Made by a program: the position numbers and the translations under genes. From positions 1-34,444 of the forward strand of contig JAHJVF010000477.1 of assembly GCA_018828505.1 (NCBI GenBank): DNA of 34,444 nucleotides. The letters are read 5' to 3'. The notes beneath the pieces were generated by a model. That model saw nothing but the letters and a program-made list of their open reading frames with translations. It was not told the DNA's origin and searched no databases. Positions 26,442-28,881 of this stretch are shown here, piece after piece (position 1 is the first letter of the stretch; every line of letters begins with the position of its first letter). The stretch comes from Bacteroidota bacterium. Its GTDB lineage: Bacteria > Bacteroidota > Ignavibacteria > Ch128b.

Positions 26442-28004
26442 TTATTTGGCAAAAGCAATCTTTCGCACTTCTCTGATAACAACTACTTTAATCTGACCCG
26501 GATATTCCATTTCTTCCTGGATTTTCCCGGCAATCTCCTGGGCTAATCTATCTGCAGTAACATCATCGATTTTTTCGTGTTCAACAACAACCCGCACTTC
26601 TCTTCCAGCTTGGATTGCATAAGTCTTTGCTACTCCCTCAAACGATTTTGCAATTGCTTCAAGTTTTTCCAAACGTTTAACATATCCCTCAAGAGGTTCT
26701 CTCCGGGCACCAGGTCTTGAACCACTGATTGAATCAGCAGCTTGGACAATAGCTGCAACTGGATGTTCCATCTCGATGTCATCATGATGGGAACCGACAG
26801 CATTTACTACAATTGGGTGCTCATTATATTTTTTTGTTATTTCCCACCCTAGTAGAGCATGCGGTCCTTCAACTCCTTTTTCTACAGTTTTACCAATATC
26901 GTGCAGGAGCGCACCTCGCTTAGCATAAGTTGGGTCTAATCCAAGCTCAGCGGCAATAATGCCTGCTAACATAGCGACTTCAATACTGTGCTGTAATAGA
27001 TTTTGCCCATAGCTGGAACGATATTTCATTTTTCCCACTAATTTAATTAGTTCTTTATGCATCCCATGCAAGCCCAACTCGACTAAAGCGTTCTCACCAT
27101 CTTCAATAAAACGGTCATCGAGTTCTTCCTTAACTTTTTCTACCACTTCTTCAATCCTTGCCGGATGAATTCTACCGTCAGCCATTAACTTTTCGATCGA
27201 TACTTTTGCGACTTCCCTTCTGAAAGGATCGAAGGCACTCAAAATTACCGCCTCAGGCGTATCATCTACAATCACATCAACACCGGTTGCTGCTTCAAAT
27301 GCACGGATATTCCGCCCTTCTTTACCGATAATTCTCCCCTTCATTTCTTCATTTTGGATTTGAACAACACTTACCGTCGTTTCCACAGAGTGATCGGCTG
27401 CTGATCTTTGTATTGCTTGCACAATTATTTTTTGAGCTTCTTTTTTGCACTCGGCTTTTGCTTGATCACGAATATTTTTAATTGATTGTGCAGCTTCTGC
27501 TTTCGCTTCATTGCTCAAATTTTCGATCAGCATTTTTTTTGCTTCGTCCCGTGTGAGACCGGCAGTTCGTTCAAGTCTAATGTTCTGTTCGGTGATTACT
27601 GTATCGAGCTGTAAATTTTTCTTCTCAGCCTCGGTTAAATGGCGTGAAAGCTCTTTTTCATTTTCGAGTAAAGTTTTTTCCTTTTTGATATAAACTTCCA
27701 ATTTTTTTTCAAGAGTCTCCTCTCTTGTTTTAATCTGCTTTTCATAATTCTGAACTTGATTCTTTTTTTGTGAAACTTCCTGATCAAAATTCTGTTTTTT
27801 CTTGTACCATTCGTCTTTGACTTCTAGAAGCTTCTCCCTTTTGATATTTACTGATTCCTTCTCAGCATCCTGAATTATTTTTTTTGCCCTCTCTTCAGAA
27901 GAACTTATGCTACTTTTTCCAACCTGTGAATTTAACATCCACCCTAAAAAGAAAAGCGTAACACATAGGAAGACTATTAACGGAATTAAAATATAAAGAT
28001 CCAT
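26442..28004 (-). CDS. rny: Ribonuclease Y
   Basis: N-terminal TM segment, coiled coil, KH region [49 protein letters not shown] domain [11 protein letters not shown]-terminal [15 protein letters not shown]. Confidence 0.97.
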
Positions 28005-28029
28005 AATTTTTGCTTTCTTGTTTTAATCT

Positions 28030-28253
28030 GCCGCCCCAAATTCTCCTCTAGATAGGATTTGAGAACCTATCTAACATACAGTGGGTGTCAGCCCAAAAAC
28101 CTTTTACGTCCACTGAGCTATTTGATTACCAAGTAATCAAAATGGCTACGATCATATAAATGATAGTTGAGGCCTGTAATTGGCTATTGGAGTCTAACTC
28201 CCTTGGTAAAAGTGTTAGTTCTCAAATATTTACCAAGAAGAATTCAGAGCGGC
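28030..28253 (-). ncRNA. Candidate structured non-coding RNA between zapA and rny (6S-like is one hypothesis)
   Basis: Closing stem 28235-28253 with 28030-28048: 19 contiguous pairs including 5 G.U. Hairpins: 28202-28210/28229-28237 and 28050-28056/28066-28072. Loop-loop complement 28218-28227/28057-28066 (10 bp). Near-perfect TTTGATTAC-TTG-GTAATCAAA hairpin. TATACT box at 28258-28263. Confidence 0.6.
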
Positions 28254-28257
28254 TAGA

Positions 28258-28269: not shown

Positions 28270-28551
28270 TTAAGAAATGTCTTCCAGAAGCAAATTGAGT
28301 TTATTAATTCGTTCGGTCGCCTTATCTATAGATTTGTTGAATGATTCCTTCTCTGCAAACAAGTCATTCGCTATATTAAGCGATGCTAATACTGCAACTG
28401 TTTGGCTTGGTTGATCGCTCATATCTTCCCGCAAATCATTCATAAGTGTGTTGACATAATCGCCAAGATCTTTTGCACGTTCTTCGTTTTCAACTAAAAG
28501 TGAATATTCTTTATCGAATATTTTGATTTTAAGCTTCTTCTGGTTAGACAT
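28270..28551 (-). CDS. zapA: Cell division protein ZapA
   Basis: KIKIFDKEYSLLVENEERAKDLGDYVNTLMND..QTVAVLASLNIANDLF. Confidence 0.88.
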   Translation of the reverse strand: MSNQKKLKIKIFDKEYSLLVENEERAKDLGDYVNTLMNDLREDMSDQPSQTVAVLASLNIANDLFAEKESFNKSIDKATERINKLNLLLEDIS

Positions 28552-28569
28552 TATTGTATTGAAACATTC

Positions 28570-28881
28570 TTAAGAAATATGAACTTCCATCCTCTCCAGG
28601 ATTTCAGAAATTCTACTTTTTAATGCTTGTCTCTCCTTCTCAGAAATAATAATTGTATTTTTTATTTTATTGAATTGAACCTTTATGTCATTTAACTCGG
28701 TCTCTCGAGTTAATTTTTCTTTGGTCAATTCGGCGTTTAAGTTTCTAAAGTTAGAAATCTCTTCTTGTAATTCGTGATTTTCTTTTTTGAGATCGTTGTA
28801 CTTTACGGCTAAATCTTGAATATTCTTTTCGAGATTAAGAAGTGTTTCTTCGAATTTGGCTTTTTTTTCTTCAATGCCCAT
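28570..28881 (-). CDS. Small coiled-coil protein, possibly a ZapA-partner (ZapB-like) protein
   Basis: 103 aa, almost entirely charged heptad-like sequence, sits between pheT and zapA; start overlaps the pheT stop. Confidence 0.6.
   Translation of the reverse strand: MGIEEKKAKFEETLLNLEKNIQDLAVKYNDLKKENHELQEEISNFRNLNAELTKEKLTRETELNDIKVQFNKIKNTIIISEKERQALKSRISEILERMEVHIS

Follow-up and report, generated by a model that had tools for sequence, protein, structure and literature searches.

The 265-nt gap between zapA and rny in the stretch of DNA analysed here (34,444 nt, hereafter the window) contains two hairpins, A and B, whose loops are perfectly complementary to each other. The hairpins should be read as RNA of the minus strand, the strand that also carries zapA and rny. 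The complementarity raises the question of whether the two loops meet in a tertiary contact or are strands of another structure. A sequence-only reading had offered a kissing loop or a conformational switch, the alternative state of the switch being a 6S-like rod. The exact 10-nt reverse complement, GTTCTCAAAT (28218-28227) against ATTTGAGAAC (28057-28066), was confirmed, as were the stems of the two hairpins (CTTGGTAAA/TTTACCAAG and AGATAGG/CCTATCT). On its own, the complement is only mildly unlikely: dinucleotide shuffling of the gap still produced a distant exact 10-nt complement in 52 of 2000 cases (about 3%). It is conservation that shows the complement to be real.

The zapA-rny gap encodes a divergent 6S RNA

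6S RNA is a small RNA that blocks bacterial RNA polymerase by mimicking DNA and is a global regulator of transcription. The best fold of the minus strand is a rod (-80.8 kcal/mol, z -5.3) in which the two “loops” are paired together. The rod comprises a closing stem, a central bubble and an upper arm, which is the layout of 6S RNA. An Rfam covariance scan of 501 bases performed with relaxed filters matched RF00013 (6S/SsrS) to positions 28253-28029 of the minus strand over its full length (model positions 1-187 of 187) with 48.7 bits, at a gathering cut-off of 46.4 and an E-value of 8e-9; the paired rod of the fold reaches beyond this match, to 28027-28257. The genes around the RNA are arranged as zapA-RNA-rny, to be compared with zapA-ssrS-fau in E. 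coli.

Neither a scan of the window at default Rfam filters nor a search for the RF00013 family across the window's own genome gave a match. Since the same model scores above the cut-off when the filters are lax, we attribute both misses to losses at the speed filters. The upper arm exceeds the model, with 55 unaligned nucleotides versus 8 in the RF00013 consensus, and this probably explains why the match is lost in the fast filters. No other plausible Rfam family was matched at the locus in the relaxed-filter scan; matches to AdoCbl-II and snoU85 (E about 4-5) were dismissed as chance. The locus is comparable to 6S-Flavo (RF01685), a divergent 6S family of Bacteroidetes that had been overlooked by existing homology searches (PMC2864571), but the RF01685 model itself gave no match here up to an E-value of 10.

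When RF00013 was run on 20 relatives, seven were matched at E<0.03 and in the same place, one of them above the cut-off (L149, 47.1 bits) and six below it (L132 with 43.8 bits and five others down to 25.6). Four Chlorobia loci scored 22-28 bits, again in the same place, and a further Ignavibacteria locus (L202) scored 32.7; the E. coli ssrS gene, scored for comparison, reached 139.8. 6S RNA is a known class, and what is found here is a divergent branch of it at the edge of the Rfam model.

Taken together, the covariance model, the rod structure, the gene context and the covariation described below identify the locus as a 6S RNA and bear out the rod that the sequence-only reading had named as an alternative. 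We are highly confident that a 6S RNA is encoded on the minus strand between zapA and rny, and its helix P2 would be swapped for local hairpins at release. The locus is a divergent, earlier missed member of the known 6S family and probably has an E. coli-like release hairpin. Its parts and neighbours are collected in Table 1. A small ORF of 103 amino acids (28570-28881, minus strand), coiled-coil-like by eye, lies between pheT and zapA.

Table 1. Features of the 6S RNA locus and its neighbours (positions in the window)
Feature	Positions	Strand	Basis or remark
6S RNA (SsrS) gene	28029..28253	-	Extent of the full-length RF00013 match
Closing stem P1, 5' strand	28231..28257	-	Fold; outer helix own-versus-swapped z -12.5
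Closing stem P1, 3' strand	28027..28054	-	Fold
Helix P2, 5' strand (AUUUGAGAAC)	28218..28227	-	Loop of hairpin A; predicted pRNA template; complementarity and covariation
Helix P2, 3' strand (GUUCUCAAAU)	28057..28066	-	Within the loop of hairpin B; complementarity and covariation
Hairpin A	28202..28237 (stems 28202-28210 and 28229-28237)	-	5'-strand alternative to P2; takes central-bubble sequence
Hairpin B, 9 bp including one G-U	28048..28074	-	3'-strand alternative to P2; candidate for the release hairpin
Upper arm, 5' strand, conserved AUUACAGGCCUCA	28168..28180	-	Alignments A2 and A3
Upper arm, 3' strand, conserved CUCAGUGGACGUAAAA	28102..28117	-	Alignments A2 and A4
Conserved GACACCCACUGU preceding the 3' central bubble	28078..28089	-	Agrees with RF00013 consensus caCCCACC
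Predicted pRNA start, C of CUAAC	28214	-	Analogy to the 6S RNAs of E. coli and B. subtilis
zapA-like gene, directly upstream of the RNA	28270..28551	-	ORF; matched at the same place in relatives
rny (RNase Y), directly downstream of the RNA	26442..28004	-	ORF; homologues in 54 of 61 genomes

Helix P2 of the rod accounts for the 10-nt complement

Within the 6S rod, the 10 matching base pairs make up helix P2, on the closing-stem side of the central bubble. Because the full-length MAFFT alignment (A2) misaligned the 3' half, pairs were counted on anchor-based, ungapped strands. In 57 dereplicated homologues, 436 of 456 P2 cells were paired, versus 400.2 ± 3.3 with permuted partners (own-versus-swapped z -12.4), and in 43 dereplicated homologues the inner seven pairs were 95% paired, versus at most 68% in slid versions; the homologues are related, and such statistics overstate their independence. 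The outer closing helix covaries more strongly than P2 (z -12.5 in a test that gave P2 -9.5).

Compensatory changes are seen at several P2 positions. At k=3, G-C is replaced by A-U in 8 of the 57 homologues, which turns GAAC/GTTC into AAAC/GTTT (e.g., L051-L054 and L058); at k=0, C-G is replaced by U-A in three of them; and additional pair types occur at k=5 and 6. The compensatory variant AGATCC/GGATCT is present in L016, L017, L022 and L056, and GAATC/GATTC in some Chlorobia. We also looked for homologues that keep the hairpin stems around loops that do not covary, an outcome that the sequence-only reading had named as evidence against its proposal, and found the opposite: the complement is retained and covaries, whereas the hairpin stems vary or are lost.

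Distribution and gene order

Rny homologues were gathered from 61 genomes plus named records, the latter assigning the source organism to the Ignavibacteria, and the regions upstream of rny were searched for the RNA with profiles of its 5' and 3' halves. The RNA was found in all 64 Ignavibacteria/Kapabacteria loci (L001-L064, a few of which are duplicates of one genome), at L041 through the 3' half alone. Neither half-profile gave a convincing match at rny loci of other phyla; in Bacteroidales, the region preceding rny gave no match to the Ignavibacteria profiles. From the wider Bacteroidota, a 6S RNA with pRNAs detected by dRNA-seq has been described in Bacteroides thetaiotaomicron (PMC7366714).

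For genome-wide searches, the 5' half was represented by a 79-position sequence model. It found a single strong place in the window's own genome (52.6 bits) and matched 90 of 98 genomes of the class, at one place each. Outside the class, the phylum sample contained 298 genomes, 98 of which were matched, again once each. Ten of these outside genomes were tested for the FMO bacteriochlorophyll protein (PF02327), and all ten carry it, which marks them as green sulfur bacteria. There the RNA again precedes rny and zapA is detectable upstream in most cases; the gene order zapA-RNA-rny is common to Ignavibacteria and Chlorobia. Rny was undetectable in several members of the class, namely G011 (family f7) and G015, G024, G033, G042, G051 and G059 (family f11). 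In family f11, where no Rny was detected, the 5' half of the 6S RNA is still present, elsewhere in the genome, in four of six genomes; at L210, a 3' half was sought over 260 nt and not recognised.

In Ignavibacteria and in green sulfur bacteria, this branch of 6S RNA scores at or below the Rfam cut-off and is missed by default scans, so that genomes of the two groups likely lack an annotation for it. A literature search returned no paper on 6S RNA in Ignavibacteria; the survey of Wehner et al. 2014 lay outside this search, and an earlier listing of Chlorobi or Ignavibacteria sequences is possible.

Transcript ends and upstream signals

Scans for σ70 promoters and for terminators gave results at chance level only. 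A T-run directly follows the closing stem in 39 of 77 homologues, and where it does, the closing stem of the 6S RNA may double as a terminator. In the window (28005-28030) there is no T-run after the closing stem, and it is mostly missing in the nearest families too, which suggests that the RNA is processed there from a zapA-6S-rny transcript.

A boxA-like motif (GTTCTTTnAAA or GCTCTTTGAAAA), which resembles rRNA antitermination leaders, was observed before the 6S gene in 26 of the 77 homologues, versus 1.0 expected from shuffles. It precedes the P2 5' strand by 59-85 nt (L014, L016, L024, L061, L197-L201 and others), and 23 of the 26 loci fall among the 39 with a T-run. The motif is absent in the window's own family, and a literature search found no paper joining boxA, NusB and 6S RNA.

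Hairpins A and B and alternative readings of the locus

The two local hairpins were analysed by the same own-versus-swapped comparison. Hairpin A gave z -4.9 and hairpin B z -6.75, while the four other pairings of the arms gave 0.3, 0.7, -3.3 (AL_BL, a control pair of arms) and -10.6 (AL_BR, which contains closing-helix sequence); from these values, the support is fairly good for B and weak for A. L003-L006, which belong to the window's family, have no hairpin A but keep both P2 and hairpin B. The 3' hairpin of L026 and L059 takes part of the P2 3' strand into its stem instead of holding it in the loop. Such variation is expected of a release hairpin with a drifting register and not of a fixed loop-loop contact. 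As a point against a release hairpin, the 3' strand folded alone is only mildly more stable than its shuffles (mean z -0.97).

A kissing loop, a defined tertiary contact between the loops of hairpins A and B with both stems formed, would require that both hairpins be conserved and that their complementary loops covary. The window does contain the two stems and the complementary 10 nt in the loops, and in several other lineages, too, the GAAC and GTTC strands are enclosed by stems, but across homologues it is the complement that is conserved, while hairpin A is lost from relatives that retain P2 and the register of the 3' hairpin shifts. Nine to ten pairs that consume an entire 9-nt loop would, moreover, be sterically awkward, and the two stems would take up the central bubble that, from what is known of 6S biology, should be needed for polymerase binding. 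We therefore consider the kissing loop of the sequence-only reading very improbable; even if such a contact forms in the window RNA itself, it is not what evolution conserves. In all likelihood, the two “loops” are strands of one helix, P2, that would be traded for local hairpins, and not parts of a standing kissing complex.

Two other readings concern what the RNA does. The structure could be a cis-acting leader that regulates the RNase Y mRNA, for example by autoregulation, with no separate 6S RNA. Its constant position just upstream of rny fits such a leader, and with no T-run after the closing stem in the window, co-transcription with zapA and rny is possible. The full-length RF00013 match, the T-run expected of a separate transcript in about half of the homologues, the retention of the 5' half in most genomes of family f11, where Rny is undetectable, and the E. 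coli ssrS gene, which follows zapA without rny, all speak against a leader, and we give it little credence. Alternatively, a 6S-type RNA could have another client, as actinobacterial Ms1 does, and act on the core polymerase rather than on the holoenzyme. Ms1 is structurally related to 6S RNA (PMC9130861), and sequence alone cannot separate holoenzyme from core binding; however, Ms1 was described from Actinobacteria (PMC9130861), whereas the 6S covariance model, with no rival Rfam family, and the zapA neighbour fit a canonical 6S RNA. A client of this kind seems, if anything, slightly less probable still than the leader.

Modelled refolding of P2 and proposed release of the 6S RNA

Opening of helix P2 was modelled in silico. 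When the predicted pRNA footprint was blocked, the energy of the window RNA changed from that of the rod to -79.4 kcal/mol, a cost of 1.4 kcal/mol, and hairpins A and B formed. In the control, opening of E. coli ssrS cost 2.7 kcal/mol and yielded the known 9-bp 3'-bubble hairpin. This hairpin contributes strongly to 6S release in E. coli (reviewed in PMC8876501). Averaged over 43 homologues and calculated from minimum energies only, opening of P2 cost 4.7 kcal/mol, versus 7.2 kcal/mol when only the bubble arms were shuffled; it was cheaper than the shuffled-arm version in 37 of the 43 (Wilcoxon 5e-8, a significance overstated by kinship, although the effect points consistently one way). In several lineages, the free RNA is predicted to adopt the two hairpins instead of the rod, which indicates that the balance between the two differs among lineages. 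With the computed states of the window RNA so close in energy, the conformational switch of the sequence-only reading is plausible as one between rod and two hairpins.

The course of events may be pictured as follows. As a member of the 6S family, the rod with its central bubble would imitate an open promoter and bind the housekeeping RNA polymerase holoenzyme. The polymerase would then start a short pRNA on the 5' bubble strand and extend it into P2. By analogy, this pRNA is predicted to start near 28214 (GUUAGUUCUC...) and to begin with GUUAGUUCUCAAAU; in many relatives, the predicted start is near GUUGGUUCUU. Synthesis of the pRNA would displace the P2 3' strand, which would fold into hairpin B and bring about release, and on the 5' side hairpin A can form at this step in silico. 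Release through such a double hairpin is our hypothesis, based on modelled folds. The proposed exchange of P2 for hairpins, together with natural compensatory variants in many lineages, provides a comparative test of how 6S RNA exits from RNA polymerase.

Comparison with known 6S RNAs

The RNA shares with E. coli 6S RNA (SsrS, RF00013) the full-length covariance match, the long rod, the central bubble and the zapA neighbour, as well as a 9-bp 3'-strand hairpin that appears in silico once P2 is opened by the pRNA footprint. It differs from the E. coli RNA in its longer upper arm, its low RF00013 score, the additional 5' hairpin A and its downstream neighbour, which is rny and not fau. In addition, the P2 3' strand is located in the loop of the window's candidate release hairpin, and not in its stem as in E. 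coli. In B. subtilis 6S-1 RNA, which forms a central bubble collapse helix, pRNA synthesis likewise leads to the exchange of P2 for another structure (PMC8876501). The partner of the P2 3' strand in 6S-1 RNA is the distal 5' bubble, whereas here each side would fold back on itself.

A more far-reaching reading, which we consider rather unlikely, is that 6S RNA of Ignavibacteria is a finely balanced two-state RNA in which P2 is exchanged for one hairpin on each side, with a P2 strand in each loop. If this were true, the polymerase would pay only about 1-2 kcal/mol to trigger release, and the exchange would constitute a third release architecture besides the 3' hairpin of E. coli and the collapse helix of B. 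subtilis.
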